From Dermatophilus congolensis (GTDB lineage: Bacteria; Actinomycetota; Actinomycetes; Actinomycetales; Dermatophilaceae): a stretch of DNA of 64,000 nucleotides. Of this stretch, positions 16,554 to 30,235 are shown one piece after another. The stretch covers positions 2,418,001-2,482,000 of the forward strand of contig NZ_LT906453.1 of NCBI RefSeq assembly GCF_900187045.1, written 5' to 3'. The notes beneath the pieces are model-generated. The model worked only from the letters and a program-made list of their open reading frames with translations. It was not told the DNA's origin and made no database searches. The stretch's first letter is position 1; each line of letters starts with the position of its first letter. The translations under genes were made by a program, and so were the position numbers.

Positions 16554-16868
16554 GTGTGGAGCTCCATCGCGGTGGTGTGGTGGCGTGGGGGCGGTTTGTG
16601 TTGTCTTCAACGATAGGTCGCTTGGGTGTGGGGTTCGAGGTGGTGGCTTGTGTTGGGCAGACTGTAGGGGGGGTGGGGTGTTGTGGGGCTGGTTTGTGTG
16701 GCTGTGGCCTTATTCCCCATTTGGTGTATTTACGCTTTTGCTTGTGTGTCAGAGCTACCCGTAAGTAGCGTGTTTTTCCAGCCACCCACACTCACGTGTT
16801 ACCGACTTTCCAGTGGATACAGTTGAAGGGACAACGGAACGCGATCCGTTGCTTTTGGGGGGAATTAC
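16554..16868. promoter_or_regulatory. Divergent intergenic region with candidate operator for the ligase/ACP/amidase operon
   Basis: No gene here. An inverted repeat CAACGGA-N6-TCCGTTG at 16832-16851 lies 17 bases before the first gene of the four-gene operon. Just upstream, a TTTCCA/GGATACAGT stretch (about 16807-16823) could be a sigma-70-like promoter. GGGGGGAA precedes the ATG at 16869. The operator role is inferred from position only. Confidence 0.4.
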
Positions 16869-18164
16869 ATGGGGTTCATGCGGGAAGATGCGTCTGTACT
16901 GGTACGCCACACTGAGACGGAAGTTTCGGTGGCATTATCCAACTATGCCCGCGAATTCACTGCAGGCGGCTCGGTTTTAGTGCGCCCTATCGAAGCATAC
17001 GAGGGCCTGGAACGCGTGATGGATTGCCTGCGCGAGCAGTCTCGAAACCCCCTTTTTGTCACAGATTTATCTTCTCATCAGCAGCGCTTAGATTCGGTGG
17101 TGGGGTCAACCGGTGAGGGCGAGCAGGCATTACCACCGTTGGAGTCTTTGGTGGCCTTCCACACCTCCGGTTCGACGGGGTCGCCCTCATGCGTGGTGTA
17201 CAAGAAGGAAACGCTTATTGAGCACGCCCGCGTGATTGCTTCTTCTTTGGATTTGAGTGATTCGCAGATTTATGTGGCGTTGCCTCCCCCACGGTTCGCT
17301 TATGGCCTGTCGATTGTTGATTCACATTTGGTCTCTGGCGTTCCTGTGACATTCGCGGATGCGGTGTGGGGGCTTCCTGGCCTGAGCGCGGCGGTAACGC
17401 AAGCCGATGCTGAGGTACCGGATCAGGTGCGGGATATCGCGATTTATGCGTTGCCGCAGCACATGCCGTTGTTACTTTCAGCGGATGTGGATCCGCAGCG
17501 TGTAACGCGAATTTTCGTTGCTGGCGGTCGTATTTCGGCAACAAGCGTGGCTCGTCTTGCAGAGCGTTTTCCGCGGTTGCGGCTGACCAATATGTATGGG
17601 CAGGCCGAGATGGGGCCACGGATTTCTGTATGGGATGGCGACCCTGCTGATTTTATTGAGGGCATGGTGGGCTCGGCGTTGCCGGGTGTGAGCATGCGCG
17701 TGGCTTTTAAAGAGCACGAGGATGCTGACGAGGTAGGGCGGTTGGTGGTCGCGAGCAAGTTCGCGATGGATAGGGTCCTGCGAGCGCCGTATACCTCGGT
17801 GGCTGCTGGTCCTGGTGCTGAGGAGGTAGTGACCTCGGATGTGGCGGTGGTGGCTGCGGATGGGTCGGTGCGGCATGCGGGGCGGGCTGATTCAGTTTTG
17901 AATGTGGCGGGGACGAAGGTGGATCTTCGGCGGGTGTCTGAGATTGTCGCTGCGGCGGCGCAGCCGCTGGTTCTGAAAATTCGTAGCAGGCCTGGCACGG
18001 TTTCGGGGGACGACATTCCTGTCGTCGAGATTGTTCCTGGTCCTGAGACTCCTGAGCGGGCGGGTCCGATCCGTCGCGCTCTTCATTCCGAATTCGGCAA
18101 GCTTGCGGGCTTGTTCGATATCAGGTTCGTCCGCGAACTGACGCTCAAGGAGAGTGGCAAGTGA
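16869..18164 (+). CDS. Adenylate-forming acyl/aminoacyl ligase (ANL superfamily)
   Basis: 431 residues, first gene of a four-gene operon. ANL motifs are complete: A3 P-loop TSGSTGSPS (99-107), A5 NMYGQAEMGPR, A8 GRADSVLNVAGTKVDLRR, and the C-terminal catalytic lysine in LTLKESGK at the very end. It should activate a carboxylic acid to an acyl-AMP. At 431 residues it is shorter than typical acyl-CoA synthetases (about 500-550), being trimmed at the N-terminus. Because an acyl carrier protein gene lies in the same operon, loading onto that carrier is a reasonable inference; CoA cannot be excluded. The substrate is unknown. The stop overlaps the next GTG. Confidence 0.85.
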   Translation: MGFMREDASVLVRHTETEVSVALSNYAREFTAGGSVLVRPIEAYEGLERVMDCLREQSRNPLFVTDLSSHQQRLDSVVGSTGEGEQALPPLESLVAFHTSGSTGSPSCVVYKKETLIEHARVIASSLDLSDSQIYVALPPPRFAYGLSIVDSHLVSGVPVTFADAVWGLPGLSAAVTQADAEVPDQVRDIAIYALPQHMPLLLSADVDPQRVTRIFVAGGRISATSVARLAERFPRLRLTNMYGQAEMGPRISVWDGDPADFIEGMVGSALPGVSMRVAFKEHEDADEVGRLVVASKFAMDRVLRAPYTSVAAGPGAEEVVTSDVAVVAADGSVRHAGRADSVLNVAGTKVDLRRVSEIVAAAAQPLVLKIRSRPGTVSGDDIPVVEIVPGPETPERAGPIRRALHSEFGKLAGLFDIRFVRELTLKESGK

Positions 18165-19108
18165 GTTCCAATCTGCAGGATCGCCTCGACTGGATCGTGG
18201 GGCAGCTCGGTGAGATGAGTAAAAAGGGTGCCCTGGTGCAGCTGTCTGGTGGAGTGGATTCCAGCACAGTGCTGCATTTGGCTGCGCGGGCTTTGGGCGC
18301 GGATCGGGTGAAGGCGTTGTATCTGCCGGATCGCGCAACGGGTCCAGAGACGAAGCGGTATGTGCAGGAGGCTGCGCAGAGCGCGGGGGTGGAGCTTATT
18401 GAGCGTTCTATCGCTGAGACGATTGAGGCGCAGTTCAGCCAGGATGAAGTTGCGGACATTATCCGCAAGTATGAGCCGGATTATGACCCGCAGACGCAGG
18501 CGTATGCGGTGAATGCCTCGCCGACAATGGCGCGTCGTTTGGGTGCTTTGGTTTACCAGGTGGTGATTGGTCCGCGTAATGGTAAGGCGGAGAAGACGCT
18601 GCGGATGAGCGCGGATGATTTGCGCGCGATCATTGCCTACCAGAACCGCAAGCAGCGTACTCGTATGTTGTTTGCGTATGCGGAGGCTGAGCGGCTCAAC
18701 TATGCGGTTGTTGGTGCCAGTAATGGCGATGAGCTGCGTAGTGGTTTTGTGGTCAAGTACGGGGACGATGCTGCCGATATTTGCGCGATTGGTGACTGCG
18801 CGAAGGAAGAGGTGTACGAGCTTGCGCGTGAGTTGGGTGTGCCGCAGTCAATTATTGACCGCACTCCCACGACGGATACGTACGCGTTGGAGCAGTCTCA
18901 GGAGGATTACTACTACGCGCTGCCGGCTGGGGTTTTAACAGCTGTTGTGACCATGTCTGATGCGGATTTGGCAGATGATGCGTCGTTGCAGCCGTTGGTA
19001 GATGAGTTGCCGGGATGGTCAGTGGCTTCACTGCGTCAGGCTGCTGTGGGACTGCGCGCTTCGTTGCGTTACCTGCAGATTCGTAGTCGGGTGTGGGATC
19101 ACTCCTGA
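18161..19108 (+). CDS. NAD-synthetase-like ATP pyrophosphatase amidase
   Basis: 315 residues from GTG overlapping the ligase stop by four bases. The PP-loop SGGVDSS (29-35) and the region RTPTTDTYALEQSQEDYYYAL place it in the NadE-type N-type ATP pyrophosphatase family, which adenylates a carboxylate and then amidates it with ammonia. No glutaminase domain is fused. Position between a ligase and a carrier protein argues against plain NAD synthesis and for amidation of a pathway intermediate, perhaps using ammonia from the AsnB-like partner. Housekeeping NadE cannot be excluded without a genome search. Confidence 0.78.
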   Translation: MSSNLQDRLDWIVGQLGEMSKKGALVQLSGGVDSSTVLHLAARALGADRVKALYLPDRATGPETKRYVQEAAQSAGVELIERSIAETIEAQFSQDEVADIIRKYEPDYDPQTQAYAVNASPTMARRLGALVYQVVIGPRNGKAEKTLRMSADDLRAIIAYQNRKQRTRMLFAYAEAERLNYAVVGASNGDELRSGFVVKYGDDAADICAIGDCAKEEVYELARELGVPQSIIDRTPTTDTYALEQSQEDYYYALPAGVLTAVVTMSDADLADDASLQPLVDELPGWSVASLRQAAVGLRASLRYLQIRSRVWDHS

Positions 19109-19195
19109 TCGTCTGAGTTTTCCCTAGGGCTGGATTCTGGCTCTGGGTTTTTGATCGATGTTTTCGTGGTTTGTGTAAAAGAAAGTGATTGATTG

Positions 19196-19444
19196 ATGAG
19201 TGAGAAGAAGCCCTGGAGCGAGGTCGAGGCCGACCTCATGGACAACGTTTTTTATGCACATGATGAGCAGGCTGTTCGTGACTCGAGTGATCTTGCTGAA
19301 GATGGTTTGCTCGATTCGTTGTCCATTGTGGTGATTTTGGAGACGTTCGCGGATGCGGGCGTGGATGAAGAGGCTCTTGAGCAAGCGCAGGCCACGGACT
19401 TCCGCAACTTGGAGGTCATGAAGGCTGCTTACGAGCGGCTCTGA
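19196..19444 (+). CDS. Acyl carrier protein
   Basis: 82 residues from ATG at 19196 (a TTG one codon upstream is also in frame). Acidic four-helix carrier with motif DGLLDSLSIVVILE; Ser41 of D-S-L is the expected phosphopantetheine site. It differs from FabD-linked ACPs and is closer to the small discrete carriers in secondary-metabolite and D-alanylation clusters. It lies between the NadE-like gene and the AsnB-like gene, with only three bases to the latter, so it probably carries the intermediate both enzymes act on. Confidence 0.85.
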   Translation: MSEKKPWSEVEADLMDNVFYAHDEQAVRDSSDLAEDGLLDSLSIVVILETFADAGVDEEALEQAQATDFRNLEVMKAAYERL

Positions 19445-19447
19445 CGT

Positions 19448-21331
19448 ATGTGCGGTTTTGCATTGGCCGTCCGCGACGCGGCTGCTGAAGTGGTTCCGAG
19501 CCCTGGTGTAGATGCGGCATTGTCGCGCCGGGGCCCGGACACGACAGCTCGTCACGTCGAGGGCGGCCTGGCTGCTGTGAGTACGCGTTTGATCCACTGG
19601 GAGGAGGGCGCATCGCAGCAGCCGTTGCTCACTGAAGACGGCGGGATGGCTGTTTTTAATGGTGAGTTGTTTAACTTGTCTGAGTTGCAGGATGTGCTTG
19701 GGCTGCCTGGTGCCAGTGAGATCGAAGTGCTGCTGGCGGGGGTTCGAGCTGAGGGTCCGGAGTTTGCTCGGCGTATTGATGGCCAGTTCGCGGCCGTGGT
19801 GCGTGTGGGGGCTGATGCTCCGGTGTTGGCGTTGCGTGACCGGTTTGGGATTTCGCCGTTGTATGTGATGCGGCGGGATGGTGCGACATATTTGGCGTCT
19901 GCATTGGAGGCGTTGTCAGAGATTTCTGGCGGCTTTTCCGGTGGTGTGGATGGCTTGGATGTGTCGGGTGTTGCTTCGATTCTTCATGATTGGGCGCCGA
20001 CGCATGGTCGTACTCCGTTCGCTGGTGTTGATCAGGTGATGCCGGGGCAGGTTGTGCAGTTGCAGGGTGATGCGCCTGTGCGTCGGTGGATGTGGGCTGA
20101 TCATCGGGCGGCACCTGTGCCTTCGGCGCGTATCGGGGCAGCGCATGAGGCGGTGACTGCGCAGGGGCAGGAGCTTGATGCTTCGCCTTTGTCTGAGGCT
20201 GATCTTGCTGAATTTGAGCAGTTGATGCGGGATTCGGTGGCTGCTCGGATGAGGTCTACGAGTGAGATCGTGGCGCTTATTTCCGGTGGTATTGATTCCA
20301 CGATCATTGCCACGCTTGCTCATGATGAGGGTGCGCGTACTGGGTTGGCTTTGTTCCTGGAGGGCGATGAGATTGTGCGCGGCCGCCAGGTCGAGGTTGC
20401 CGAGGCTATTGGCTATGACCTGGTTCATCACATGCTGCGTCCTCGTGCTGCGGTGACGTTGCTTGAGGAGTATGTACGTACTCGTCGGGTTCCGTTGGTG
20501 CGAATGGGCCCGATAGGCATGATGAGTTTGGCGCGCCGGGCGGCGAGTGAGGGTATCCGTGGGGTGCTTTCTGGTGAGGGTGCTGATGAGTTGTTTGGAG
20601 GTTACGACTCTTATCGCATCTTGGCTGCTCGGGCGGGTGCTTTTGGTGATCCGAAGCGTTTGCCGTGGGATGAGTTTGGTGAGCCTGAGTTTGGTGGCGA
20701 TCGTGGTCCGCGATGGGCGAGGTCGTATTGGCGTGCAGTGATCGCGTTGTCGAGCAGTGCTGGTAGTCGTCGCGCGGACATTATGAAGCCGGTAGCGGAG
20801 TTGTTTGGCCCGCAGTTGCGGACGGCTTTTGATGCTGCTGCCGTGCTGCCGGAGGGCTTTGGGTTAGAGGACCGTCGTCAGGTTGATTTGCGGGATTTGC
20901 TTGGCTCGTATCTTTTGACTGTCCAGGGTGACCATGCCTGGATGGAGGAGGGCGTGGAGCTTCGCCCTGCGTATTTGGCGACGCCGGTTGCGCGGTATGC
21001 GTTGCGTCGGGATCCGGCTTCGTTTGTGTCGATCCGGGATGGGAAGGTGCCGGTTCGGTCTTTGTTGCGCCGCCTTGCGGCCCAGCGCCCTGCGATAGCT
21101 GGGTTGGGTTTCCCGAAGTCTGCTTTCCGAGTGGATGCCTCGTTTGTGTTGCGTGACAGTGAGGCGACTGCGCATATGCGTCGTTTGGTGACGCAGTGTC
21201 CGGATGCGTTGATTAATACCGATGGGGTGATTGATCGGTTTGATCGTGCGGTGGGTGCTGGCACGTGTTCGGAGTCGGAGTCGATGGTGTTTTTGTTGGC
21301 TGCGAGTTTAGGTGTGTTGGCCGCGGATTGA
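19448..21331 (+). CDS. AsnB-like glutamine-dependent amidotransferase
   Basis: 627 residues. The N-terminal class II glutaminase has Cys2 (MCGF), SRRGPDT and the VFNGELFN oxyanion region. The C-terminal synthetase domain has the PP-loop ISGGIDST and LSGEGADELFGGYDSY, the AsnB signature. Both halves appear active. True asparagine synthetases are usually about 520-610 residues and stand alone; AsnB paralogues in biosynthetic clusters instead amidate carrier- or CoA-bound acids (for example OxyD). Here it is the last gene of an operon with ligase, NadE-like enzyme and ACP. A strong hairpin follows its stop. Confidence 0.9.
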   Translation: MCGFALAVRDAAAEVVPSPGVDAALSRRGPDTTARHVEGGLAAVSTRLIHWEEGASQQPLLTEDGGMAVFNGELFNLSELQDVLGLPGASEIEVLLAGVRAEGPEFARRIDGQFAAVVRVGADAPVLALRDRFGISPLYVMRRDGATYLASALEALSEISGGFSGGVDGLDVSGVASILHDWAPTHGRTPFAGVDQVMPGQVVQLQGDAPVRRWMWADHRAAPVPSARIGAAHEAVTAQGQELDASPLSEADLAEFEQLMRDSVAARMRSTSEIVALISGGIDSTIIATLAHDEGARTGLALFLEGDEIVRGRQVEVAEAIGYDLVHHMLRPRAAVTLLEEYVRTRRVPLVRMGPIGMMSLARRAASEGIRGVLSGEGADELFGGYDSYRILAARAGAFGDPKRLPWDEFGEPEFGGDRGPRWARSYWRAVIALSSSAGSRRADIMKPVAELFGPQLRTAFDAAAVLPEGFGLEDRRQVDLRDLLGSYLLTVQGDHAWMEEGVELRPAYLATPVARYALRRDPASFVSIRDGKVPVRSLLRRLAAQRPAIAGLGFPKSAFRVDASFVLRDSEATAHMRRLVTQCPDALINTDGVIDRFDRAVGAGTCSESESMVFLLAASLGVLAAD

Positions 21332-21341
21332 ACGCGGTGTA

Positions 21342-21392
21342 CGTAAAAGGTGTGGCCTTTCCCGTTTTATGGGAAAGGCCACACCTTTTACG
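21342..21392. terminator. Bidirectional terminator hairpin
   Basis: Perfect 22-bp stem (arms 21342-21363 and 21371-21392, starting CGTAAAAGG) around a GTTTTAT loop, between the convergent ends of the AsnB-like gene and the His-rich small gene. Confidence 0.85.
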
Positions 21393-22361: not shown

Positions 22362-23014
22362 CTAGTAAGCGCCGCTACTGGTAAACACCGCCGAGAAGGT
22401 GCGGAACAAAATATGCAAATCACCCATCGGTGACCAGTTATCGACGTACCGAAGATCAAGCCGCAATGACTCTTCCCATGACAAATCAGAACGGCCGCTC
22501 ACCTGCCACAGCCCCGTCATTCCAGGCTTGACATGCAGTCGTCGCAACGCATCTGGCTCATACTGCTCCACCTCGCGAGCCAATGGCGGCCGCGGCCCCA
22601 CCAGCGACATATCGCCAATAAGAACGTTAATGAGCTGCGGCAACTCATCAAGGGAGTATCGGCGAAGGAAATGACCAATCTTCGTGATACGGGGGTCATC
22701 CTTCATCTTGAACAGCACACCATTGCCGTCACTACGCGCTTCCAGGGCTTCGAGCCGCTTCTCAGCATCGACAACCATCGTGCGGAATTTGAAAATCCAA
22801 AAGAACTTGCCGCGCACCCCCACCCGCTGCTGCCGGAAAAACACCGGCCCAGGGTCACTGATCTTGATCGCAACCGCAATCACAACCATCAGTGGAGACA
22901 GCAGGAAAAGCAAAAGAGCCGCCAAACTACAGTCCATAAACCCTTTAAGAATCGCTGAGCGTCGCGCAGCCGCCGGACGTTCAATGTGAAGCAGGGAAAG
23001 GTTTGTCGAGGGAC
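22362..23014 (-). pseudogene. Undecaprenyl-phosphate sugar phosphotransferase, C-terminal catalytic half (after frameshift)
   Basis: This frame encodes the complete bacterial sugar transferase domain: a membrane re-entrant helix ([19 protein letters not shown]), DPGPVFFRQQRVG, FKFRTMV, RRYSLDELPQLINVL, SLVGPRP and PGMTGLWQVSGRSDLSW. These motifs define WcaJ/WbaP/CpsE-type initiating enzymes that put the first sugar-1-phosphate on undecaprenyl phosphate. The upstream sensor half is in another frame. Removing one G at 23015-23016 (plus strand) joins the halves to read LSIRPSTNLSLLHIERP, as expected for the family. As sequenced the catalytic half has no own good start; the gene is broken or has a sequencing error. 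Confidence 0.82.
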
Positions 23015-23922
23015 GGTATAGACAAACGCGGACCAGCAACATCCAGCAATCCAGGCGAGACAATCAGCTCAATGCCACGTTCTTCCAGTGCCCACGCCAA
23101 CCGCCGCAAGGACTTTCCAGCCAGATCTGGGTGGCTTGCCACTACCACCACCTCAGCGTCATACAAATCAGCAGCAGCAAGTGCATCACGTGGACGCCCC
23201 ATCACCGGCACGCCCTCCAGTGAAGTTGTCGTGTCCCACTCAGCGTCGAATCCGGTAGCACATACTGCAACCGGCCGCAGTCCTTGCCCAGGCTCAGATT
23301 TAATAGAGCGAATGAGATTAGCCGCAGCATCAGCGCGCCCCACAACAATCGTGCGCTGCATCAGTTCACCAACACGTCGATGACGCACAAGCCAACGACG
23401 CATCACCCAACGAGCAGCTAATCCACCAGCAAACAACAGCGGCAGCATAAGGAACACCCACATGCGTGCCAATGGATAGTTGCTCGCGAAGGCGCCGATT
23501 GCCAGCACTGACAGCAAACCGACCGTGGCTCGCCCCACCGACCGATACTCTTCGGTGCTCACGCCGAGGAACCGCCGCTCGTATGCGTTTGCCATCACCA
23601 ATGCGAGTACCCATACGAACGGAATCGCAACAGTTGCCATCCAGTAGCCAGCTGTAACTTCCGAACCAAACCGCGTAACCGATGCTGCCACTGCGCCAGC
23701 AGCACCAATCACAAAATCACCTGCAACCAAGCGCAATAAATACGCACGAGCCCACTCCCCACCGGGAGCATGTGCGGGGGCATTGACCGGGCCTAAAGAC
23801 GGCGCAAACGGGATGTCGGATTCGTCGCGCAGTACGAGGCGAGCGGTCTCACTCTCGGTCTTCGCCGAAGTCCGGCGACCGGACCGATGCCACCCCCTGG
23901 TTGATCGGTTCTCGACAGTCAC
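23015..23922 (-). pseudogene. Undecaprenyl-phosphate sugar phosphotransferase, N-terminal half (before frameshift)
   Basis: N-terminal half of the same gene. The start is taken as GTG at 23922, eight bases after GGAGAG; longer starts exist. After a cytosolic tail come four or so membrane helices and a CoA-binding-like Rossmann region (RTIVVGRADAAANLIRSI and VVVVASHPDLAGKSLR, then ELIVSPGLLDVAGPRLSI), the usual order in WcaJ-like proteins. The frame then runs into a stop at 22981 after an unrelated tail. It could supply the initiating transferase for the exopolysaccharide cluster at the left edge, if functional. Confidence 0.8.
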
Positions 23923-24300
23923 TTTTCGTTCTCTCCACATGTTGAGGAACTGGGTTCGAAAAATAGGCACACAGCTGTGCGCACACGATCCGACACTGCC
24001 CCCGACGTCATGTGCGTCTCCCCTGACAGCCCCGCAGGCCGATATCGCGATATCGCATCATCGACCATTGCTCCCCCAGAGCTTTGTAACGCCAATTTTC
24101 TCATGCGGTGTGGTGCCGTGTCCCTGTTGAAAAGATTCGGCTACCACTTCCACGGTAATCTCCTCGGCAACTCAATTGCCTACTCTTGTGCCACCTTTGC
24201 AGAATTCTTGAGTTTCGCGCAGCAGACTCTCCGCGGGCAGGTAAAGCATCCATACAAATTACTGATCCTCGACACCTTGTTTAGATGCCGAGGACCTGCA
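23923..24300. other. Gene-free region with 16-bp palindrome
   Basis: No gene seen. Positions 24040-24055 hold a perfect 16-bp palindrome CGATATCGCGATATCG, roughly 120 bases upstream of the sugar transferase start; it may be an operator. Near 24266-24297, TCCTCG and CGAGGA arms downstream of pth could form a weak terminator. Confidence 0.45.
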
Positions 24301-28249: not shown

Positions 28250-29360
28250 TCAGCGGCTACGGCGCTGCTGCTGTTTTTGCTTAGCGCGGCGACGGCGTTC
28301 CTCACGCTCGTCCGCTTCACGGTGTAGACGCCGCTCCAGAGCAAGCTGACGTCCAAACCGCTCACGCTCACGCAGATCCAGATAAATCACATCGCGCTGA
28401 AGCCCCTTAACAATCGCGAACATCAACCCCACGATCACAAATAGGAAGGGGGTCGATGCCACGATCGTGACGCTCTGCACGCTGTTAAGCGCATCATCAC
28501 CACCAGCAAGAAGCAGGGTGATGCCAACCAAGGCCGTGAGCAGACCCCACAGTGCAGAAAGCCACGGTGCTGCGTCGCCACGACCGTTCTGGGACATCGA
28601 CCCCATCACTGTGGACGCAGAATCAGCCGAGGTGATGAAGAACGTGGCAAGCAGCAAAATCGCAACAAACCCAGCTGCAGTGCCCCCGGGGAACTGGTGC
28701 AGAAGGTTGAACAACTGCTGCTCAGCATTCCCGTCGCCGTAGATCGACTTTCCGGTCTGCTCCATGACGATGGCCGTGCCACCAAAAATCGCGAACCAGA
28801 CTGTTGAAAGCCCCGCAGGAACAAGCATCACACCCAAGCAGAACTCTTTAATGGTTCGACCACGCGAAATACGCGCAAGGAACATACCAACGAAAGGTGA
28901 CCAGCTAATCCACCACGCCCAGTAGAAGATTGACCACGAGGATAGCCATTTACCGGCGGTGCCATTTGCAGAAGCCGCTGTTCGACTTGCCATCTCGAAA
29001 AATTGGCTCAAATACGAACCAATCGACCCTGGCAGCAAGTTGAGTTGCGTCACTGTCGGCCCAAAAGCGAAAACAAAAAGGGCGAGCACAGCAGCAAGAA
29101 TCATGTTGATGTTCGAGAGGATTTGAATCCCCCGACCCACGCCGGAAAACGCAGACATCATGAACGCCAAAGTGAGAATCGCCACGATCGTGACGATGAG
29201 GCCATTCCCCGGGTTGTGAACCAACCCTGAGGCCTCAAGACCGGCACGGATCTGCAATGCTCCTAACCCAAGCGAGCAAGCAGTACCGAACACCGTCGCA
29301 AAGATCGACAGAATGTCGATGCAGCGACCAAACAACCCGTTCGCATGCTTCTCCCCCACT
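28250..29360 (-). pseudogene. BCCT-family transporter, C-terminal part (after frameshift)
   Basis: This frame encodes helices 5 to 12 of a betaine/choline/carnitine transporter: [34 protein letters not shown], the substrate-site segment [22 protein letters not shown] (split in families as W-x-YWAWW), and TSADSAS. The highly charged tail ([14 protein letters not shown]) is also typical. It is joined to the N-terminal part by deletion of one A at 29361-29363 (plus strand), giving [14 protein letters not shown]. As sequenced it cannot be made in frame. BCCT carriers import glycine betaine or choline for osmoprotection. Confidence 0.85.
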
Positions 29361-30053
29361 AAACGGAGTAAAAGCTGCCGAGATGAGCTGCTTACGCCCC
29401 ACACGGTACGTGGAGTAAGCGATGGCCAGACCGACAATCGCGTAGACCGCCCACGGATGCAACGTCCAGTGGAACATCGCCGTAGCCATAGCGGTCCCGA
29501 CCTCTTGCTTGGCATGCCCTGGAACGCCATCGCGATAGAAAGACAACGGCTCAGAAGCTCCGTAGAACATCAGACCGATACCCATACCCGCCGCGAACAT
29601 CATCGCGATCCATGAACTCGTGCGGAATTCCGGCTGCTCATCCATCGAACCGAGACGAATGTTGCCGAAACGCCCAAAGGCGATGGTGAGCACGAAAGCC
29701 ACGAACACCGTGCCGAAGAACACGAAGGCCCATCCCAGGTTGTCTAGAACCCAAGAAAAAGCAACCTTCGCAGCAGCCGAGAACGTCTCACCTGACAACA
29801 AACCCCACGCAACCACGATCGCAATAAGCACCGAGGCAGGGATGATCACGCTGTAGTCAATTGGTGCATCAGCACGCTCAGACTCAAGCTCGACCGGCTT
29901 TTCACGCAGGTCTTCTGGTGTTAATTCACGGTCGCTCGAGAGGATTGTGGCGAGTTCCTGCATAGCACTCGTCGTCGGCCCCACGAACTGGCCTTTATCT
30001 TCGCCGACGGGATCCGGGGCATCAGCTGATGGCGGATTTTCTTTATCGGTCAT
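29361..30053 (-). pseudogene. BCCT-family transporter, N-terminal part (before frameshift)
   Basis: N-terminal half of the same gene, ATG at 30053. A hydrophilic tail of about 75 residues precedes helices 1-4, with [18 protein letters not shown], the glycine-rich signature of sodium-coupled BCCT carriers, and [20 protein letters not shown]. After [11 protein letters not shown] the frame leaves the family sequence (it continues to a stop at 29235). No strong ribosome-binding site is visible. The two halves together would give a protein of about 600 residues. Confidence 0.85.
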
Positions 30054-30235
30054 ACAAGTGAAACTACCGAGGAAAACGCACCACACCCAACAAGCGAGCA
30101 TGGATAACACACATTTCGCGTCGCCTGATTCAGTGAAAATAAATAACTTCGCAGAGACGAATATCACTGACGCACATACGCGTCACCGGCGGAAACACAA
30201 CCGCCCCAGAAGGACAGCAGTTAATGCGCAATAAA

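Follow-up and report, generated by a model that had tools for sequence, protein, structure and literature searches.

A conserved ligase, carrier and amide synthetase gene module in Dermatophilus congolensis that may supply a carboxamide acyl group to a cell-surface polysaccharide

The window, a stretch of 64,000 nucleotides from the Dermatophilus congolensis genome, contains four tightly packed genes on the forward strand with an inverted repeat at either end. The features of the locus are listed below, together with a sugar transferase gene that lies outside the operon.

16832..16851, palindrome with arms CAACGGAACG/CGATCCGTTG, 5' of the operon, candidate operator or leader hairpin
16869..18164 (+), short class I adenylate-forming ligase, 431 aa, PF00501
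18161..19108 (+), NadE-like PP-loop amide synthetase, 315 aa, PF02540, glutaminase domain absent
19196..19444 (+), discrete acyl carrier protein, 82 aa from the ATG, conserved phosphopantetheine Ser in DSL
19448..21331 (+), AsnB-like glutamine amidotransferase, 627 aa, PF00733 and GATase_7
21342..21392, terminator-like inverted repeat from the repeat search, common to the operon and a convergent downstream gene
22362..23970 (-), polyprenyl-phosphate sugar transferase, about 1 kb downstream, outside the operon

The ORF coordinates confirmed the positions and dense packing of the four genes in the original prediction. The ligase and NadE-like reading frames overlap by 4 bases, a gap of 87 bases precedes the carrier gene and 3 bases separate the latter from the AsnB-like gene. 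The carrier start was taken as the ATG at 19196; the ORF list has a TTG start at 19193. Both predicted flanking elements were recovered by the inverted-repeat search. The upstream palindrome has 10-nt arms that are 90% complementary, with no spacer. The proposed strong terminator corresponds to 22-nt arms (21342-21363 and 21371-21392) that are 100% complementary around a 7-nt loop, although this hairpin is missing from the output of the terminator scan of the window, probably because the T-run sits within the stem. The convergent gene downstream ends at this hairpin as well. Three of the four proteins were assigned by Pfam as anticipated. The carrier protein had no Pfam match and was recognized by its Asp-Ser pair (Asp41-Ser42 in the numbering of the TTG-start ORF), which all 30 aligned homologues retain.

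The gene set recurs far outside this genome. The NadE-like gene was found in 10 of the 148 relatives searched, with the other three genes nearby in all 10, and the module is present in 3 of 395 genomes of the host's class; its distribution is patchy. A scan of genome contigs confirmed relatives of the NadE-like gene on at least 549 contig stretches. Among the best 80 of these, which are the top-ranked relatives and not a random sample, 59 contain all four genes, in 13 gene orders, and at 56 of the 59 complete loci the genes lie within 7.5 kb. The remaining 21 loci lack some detected partner, partly from contig ends; for those of the best 80 that are at least 14 kb long, 39 of 48 carry all four genes. 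The best 80 cover at least 8 phyla, including Bacteroidota, Alpha-, Gamma- and Deltaproteobacteria, Chloroflexota, Acidobacteriota, Planctomycetota, Verrucomicrobiota, Nitrospirota and Actinomycetota, and in rhizobia all four genes are present in another order. Across 64 loci the four proteins have diverged in step, their pairwise divergences correlating at r 0.85-0.92. This conservation is far beyond chance expectation, and judging from the sequences the four proteins behave as a single unit despite the reshuffling of their genes. The original prediction had made its case depend on conserved linkage in relatives, and such linkage is what the 59 complete loci in the best 80 display across phyla.

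The gene mfd adjoins the module here, and also at two loci (L125 and L126, in genomes G365 and G486) that carry a different module clade in another family of the class. It may flank an insertion hot spot.

The ligase combines the A3 motif TSGSTG, an A10 lysine and a linked carrier protein, which are the features expected of an acyl-ACP ligase. The lysine (Lys431) is the final residue of the protein and is conserved in 46 of 46 aligned module ligases. Two further positions bear on the substrate. In the register derived from the DltA alignment, Gly146 occupies the position of the Asp that binds the alpha-amino group in DltA, again in 46 of 46 ligases. Arg251, three or four residues past the A5 glutamate, is equally conserved (46/46), with a one-residue spacing difference in this region between the two main ligase subgroups, and the aligned DltA and CysF sequences have no equivalent arginine. 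By established A-domain numbering we take this to be a position in the specificity pocket; the assignment of Arg251 rests on the alignment. Together, Gly146 and Arg251 suggest that the substrate is probably an acid that lacks an alpha-amino group and carries a second negative charge. Loading of an amino acid, as in Dlt or NRPS systems, is disfavoured by the replacement of the alpha-amino Asp with an invariant glycine. The AlphaFold model of the ligase was confident (pLDDT 87.7; plasmid-derived rows were left out of the structure-prediction inputs), and a Foldseek search with it returned the whole adenylate-forming superfamily, naming no substrate. The best NCBIfam relative is the 2-oxoglutaryl-ACP ligase AmcH (NF058661, E 1.2e-17). 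Identity with AmcH was rejected at 63.6 bits against a cut-off of 370, and the score for the XrtA EPS ligase family TIGR03098 was 48.9 against a cut-off of 592.

The model of the NadE-like protein (pLDDT 89.9) is nearest to NAD synthetases (best Foldseek match 1xng, TM 0.67). The protein shares its fold and PP-loop with NH3-dependent NAD synthetase NadE, the SGG-D-S residues being invariant among aligned homologues, but differs by an insert of about 45 residues (near 106-150) and by its linkage to a carrier and a ligase. It falls in subfamily PRK00876 below the cut-off (230.7 versus 313 bits). A profile search of the genome placed the true housekeeping nadE separately, at C1:535506 (E 1.5e-67), and the NadE encoded there is without the insert. 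With a separate nadE present and an insert of its own, the module protein is not the NAD synthetase of this genome. The AsnB-like protein keeps the glutaminase Cys2, the PP-loop SGGIDS and the motif GEGADE; in the homologue alignment A2 the PP-loop is invariant and Cys2 nearly so. It scored 188.9 bits against the asparagine-synthase cut-off of 267.1 (TIGR01536), and 91.8 against 817 for the XrtA EPS amidotransferase family (TIGR03108).

The original prediction held that both enzymes would be housekeeping if the genome had no other nadE or asnB. A separate nadE exists; a profile search of the 2.63-Mb single-contig genome found no other asnB, which is not fatal to the prediction. GatB is present and no asparaginyl-tRNA synthetase (AsnRS) was matched at the cut-off; asparagine is therefore probably made on tRNA by transamidation, and the AsnB-like protein would not be needed for translation. 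The lack of a second asnB does speak for a reading in which AsnB supplies asparagine and NadE supplies NAD as chance neighbours. We rejected this reading and give it next to no credence, in view of the nadE gene elsewhere, GatB without AsnRS, scores under the asparagine-synthase and NadE-subfamily cut-offs, and a linkage with carrier and ligase that is conserved across phyla. As the sole AsnB of the genome, and with envelope-related neighbours, the AsnB-like protein might instead amidate a carboxylate of a cell-wall polymer, in the manner of LtsA, and the other genes would then contribute to that polymer as well. This is very improbable, as the protein is linked to a carrier and a ligase, and a module found in just 10 of 148 relatives is unlikely to have a peptidoglycan function. 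A role in anti-phage defence was also rejected, since PADLOC-DB gave no matches for the four proteins.

The statement that no described pathway has just these four parts needs correction. On the pSymB replicon of Sinorhizobium meliloti, one operon (L020) encodes all four protein types, which are likewise together in the window, and its ligase has been partly studied. According to PMC7232532, which cites Ramos-Vega 2009, the carrier SMb20651 is co-transcribed with the ligase SMb20650 and is reported to become acylated by it in E. coli, and the ligase is reported to be unable to substitute for FadD on oleate. From the replicon and gene content we infer that these locus tags belong to L020. The S. 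meliloti order is asnB-acp-ligase-nadE, its ligase is about 85 aa longer than that of the window, and identity to the window proteins is 34% for the NadE-like and 27% for the AsnB-like protein. In the record of S. meliloti ml56 (L020 8359-9905, +) the ligase of the module is spread over two ORFs, and this copy looks broken. The four-gene set is not categorically new, as it is found in annotated genomes and one homologue has been partly studied. The open-licence papers searched include none on the module as a pan-bacterial unit, on its link to polysaccharide or on its product, and looking there for the four parts in combination gave no match.

Several known systems share part of this arrangement. 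AmcH loads 2-oxoglutarate onto the ACP AmcB in cispentacin biosynthesis, as demonstrated in vitro (PMC10698177). The likeness lies in a short ligase that places a dicarboxylic acid on a discrete ACP, which is an activity of AmcH and, for the window ligase, a family resemblance; AsnB and NadE are absent from that pathway as described (PMC10698177). For the glutarimide antibiotics (ChxB/C/D, SmdF/G/H), an asparagine-synthetase homologue has been proposed to amidate malonyl-ACP to malonamyl-ACP (PMC7756379). As in the module, a discrete ACP is paired with such a homologue, which is proposed to act on an ACP-bound dicarboxylic acid, but the system uses an acyltransferase and a PKS and, as described, has neither an adenylating ligase nor a NadE-like protein (PMC7756379). 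XrtA/PEP-CTERM exopolysaccharide loci have the polysaccharide setting in common with the module, whereas the TIGR03098 and TIGR03108 matches of the ligase and AsnB-like protein are weak and far below the cut-offs. In DltA-DltC D-alanylation a ligase and a carrier pass an acyl group to a surface polymer, as we propose for the module. DltB is an MBOAT protein, and some module relatives have an MBOAT neighbour of this class. The module differs from the Dlt system in having Gly for the alpha-amino Asp and the additional AsnB- and NadE-like parts, and the window is without DltB and DltD.

The genes surrounding the module in other genomes point to surface polysaccharides. In high-GC flanks genes were called by longest ORF, and some clustered neighbours are antisense frames (one is the representative of cluster 0); neighbours were counted only if annotated, profile-supported or in clusters read in the right frame. 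Neighbour clustering placed polysaccharide genes at 32 of 72 loci of at least 10 kb, a raw count with no random-locus control, and found none in most alphaproteobacterial loci. Sugar transferases, Poly_export and GNVR chain-length proteins, glycosyltransferases and some MBOAT acyltransferases are neighbours in Bacteroidota, and glycosyltransferases, polysaccharide deacetylases, O-antigen ligase and FemAB-like GNAT domains in other phyla; XrtA-type glycosyltransferase matches occur near some modules. The module of Azospirillum thermophilum (ACP-ligase-asnB-nadE-GNAT acyltransferase) lies inside an O-antigen/EPS locus, where it follows a sugar transferase, an O-antigen ligase, glycosyltransferases and a deacetylase in one row. 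In a member of the host's own family (G042), the module is flanked by glycosyltransferases and two sugar transferases. The Shinella module was counted as polysaccharide context and also has lipid-synthesis genes nearby. PrmC-like methyltransferases with the amide-methylation motif NPPY are found near 7 modules in three phyla, which suggests an amide in the product.

Two protein types without a Pfam family accompany the module. A GNAT-like protein of about 370 aa is encoded near most alphaproteobacterial modules and one acidobacterial module (for example L019 10958-12070, -, and L021 8883-9992, +). The second type, about 270 aa long and probably exported, contains the motif FFGHQSVGWNIIQGI and occurs near the module in four phyla (L038, L064, L066, L070, L080 and L106).

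In the window itself, no acyltransferase, flippase or glycosyltransferase is attached to the operon, and no acyltransferase for a final transfer was identified in this genome. The remark that no tailoring gene is attached was thus right for the window and too narrow for the relatives, which add GNAT-like, PrmC-like, MBOAT and exopolysaccharide genes. The main polysaccharide locus of the genome (C1:2481500-2499900, L127) is about 50 kb away, just past the right end of the window, and encodes a 4,6-dehydratase, an aminotransferase, a sugar transferase, a UDP-GlcNAc 2-epimerase, glycosyltransferases and a flippase. Downstream of the operon, the sugar transferase gene is broken up into two ORFs that overlap and differ in frame (22362-23063 and 22981-23970, -), and both parts are contiguous in a sister genome (L022 13640-15244). 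A BCCT transporter gene is also split (overlapping ORFs 28250-29530 and 29235-30167, -), and the genome may carry several frameshifts, real or assembly-derived.

We propose, with a probability of roughly 0.55, that the four-protein module makes a carrier-bound carboxamide acyl group for a cell-surface polysaccharide. The polysaccharide part of this reading is based on the Bacteroidota, Azospirillum, Shinella and G042 loci and on the sugar transferase gene near the operon. A product of another kind, a small soluble amide (a secondary metabolite, osmolyte or signal) that is released from the carrier and merely has polysaccharide genes as frequent neighbours, is unlikely, yet has several points in its favour. 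Most rhizobial loci and the window have no attached polysaccharide operon, the presence of the module is patchy (3 of 395 genomes of the class), and AsnB action on an ACP has been proposed for antibiotic starter units (PMC7756379). Against it, the relatives' loci have no recurrent gene for an exporter, a thioesterase, a PKS or an NRPS close to the module, and polysaccharide genes recur across several phyla. The loading and amidation steps could also proceed as proposed with a lipid or protein as the acyl acceptor and no polysaccharide, since acyl groups on carriers are passed to many kinds of acceptor; the GNAT-like companion without a Pfam family and the lipid-synthesis genes of Shinella would fit. 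We judge this quite improbable because of the sugar transferases and glycosyltransferases that recur in Bacteroidota, Azospirillum and the host's family.

For the carrier-bound carboxamide and its transfer to a polysaccharide, the following sequence of steps can be envisaged. The ligase would adenylate a small organic acid, probably a dicarboxylic one, that lacks an alpha-amino group and has a second anionic group, and load it as a thioester onto the phosphopantetheine of the carrier, as suggested by the ligase residues and family and by the reported carrier loading of the S. meliloti homologue (PMC7232532). The AsnB-like protein, acting as its family does, would hydrolyse glutamine, adenylate the free carboxylate and amidate it to a carboxamide acyl-carrier, in line with the proposal for malonamyl-ACP of the glutarimide antibiotics. 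The role of the NadE-like protein in the module is a guess and the least certain step: it may adenylate another carboxylate and couple it to ammonia or an amine, with a specificity altered by its insert. To judge from the neighbours in relatives, an acyltransferase of the GNAT or MBOAT type would then acylate the repeat unit of a polysaccharide on an amino or hydroxyl group, sometimes after N-methylation of the amide by a PrmC-like enzyme. The logic of stepwise activation, loading and amidation foreseen in the original prediction is supported, and bis-amidation is possible. Tentatively, the module may represent an unrecognized, horizontally mobile pathway of many phyla, in which the AsnB- and NadE-type enzymes build a doubly amidated or N-substituted dicarboxylic acyl-carrier for an undescribed surface-polysaccharide substituent.

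Relatives of the NadE-like gene are present in hundreds of genomes (at least 549 contig stretches), and the annotated plasmid records examined label the module genes NAD synthase and asparagine synthase. If the proposal is true, those labels are wrong and mask a shared pathway of surface chemistry, and the four genes would offer a short pathway, open to reconstitution, that leads to carrier-bound amides of a new type.
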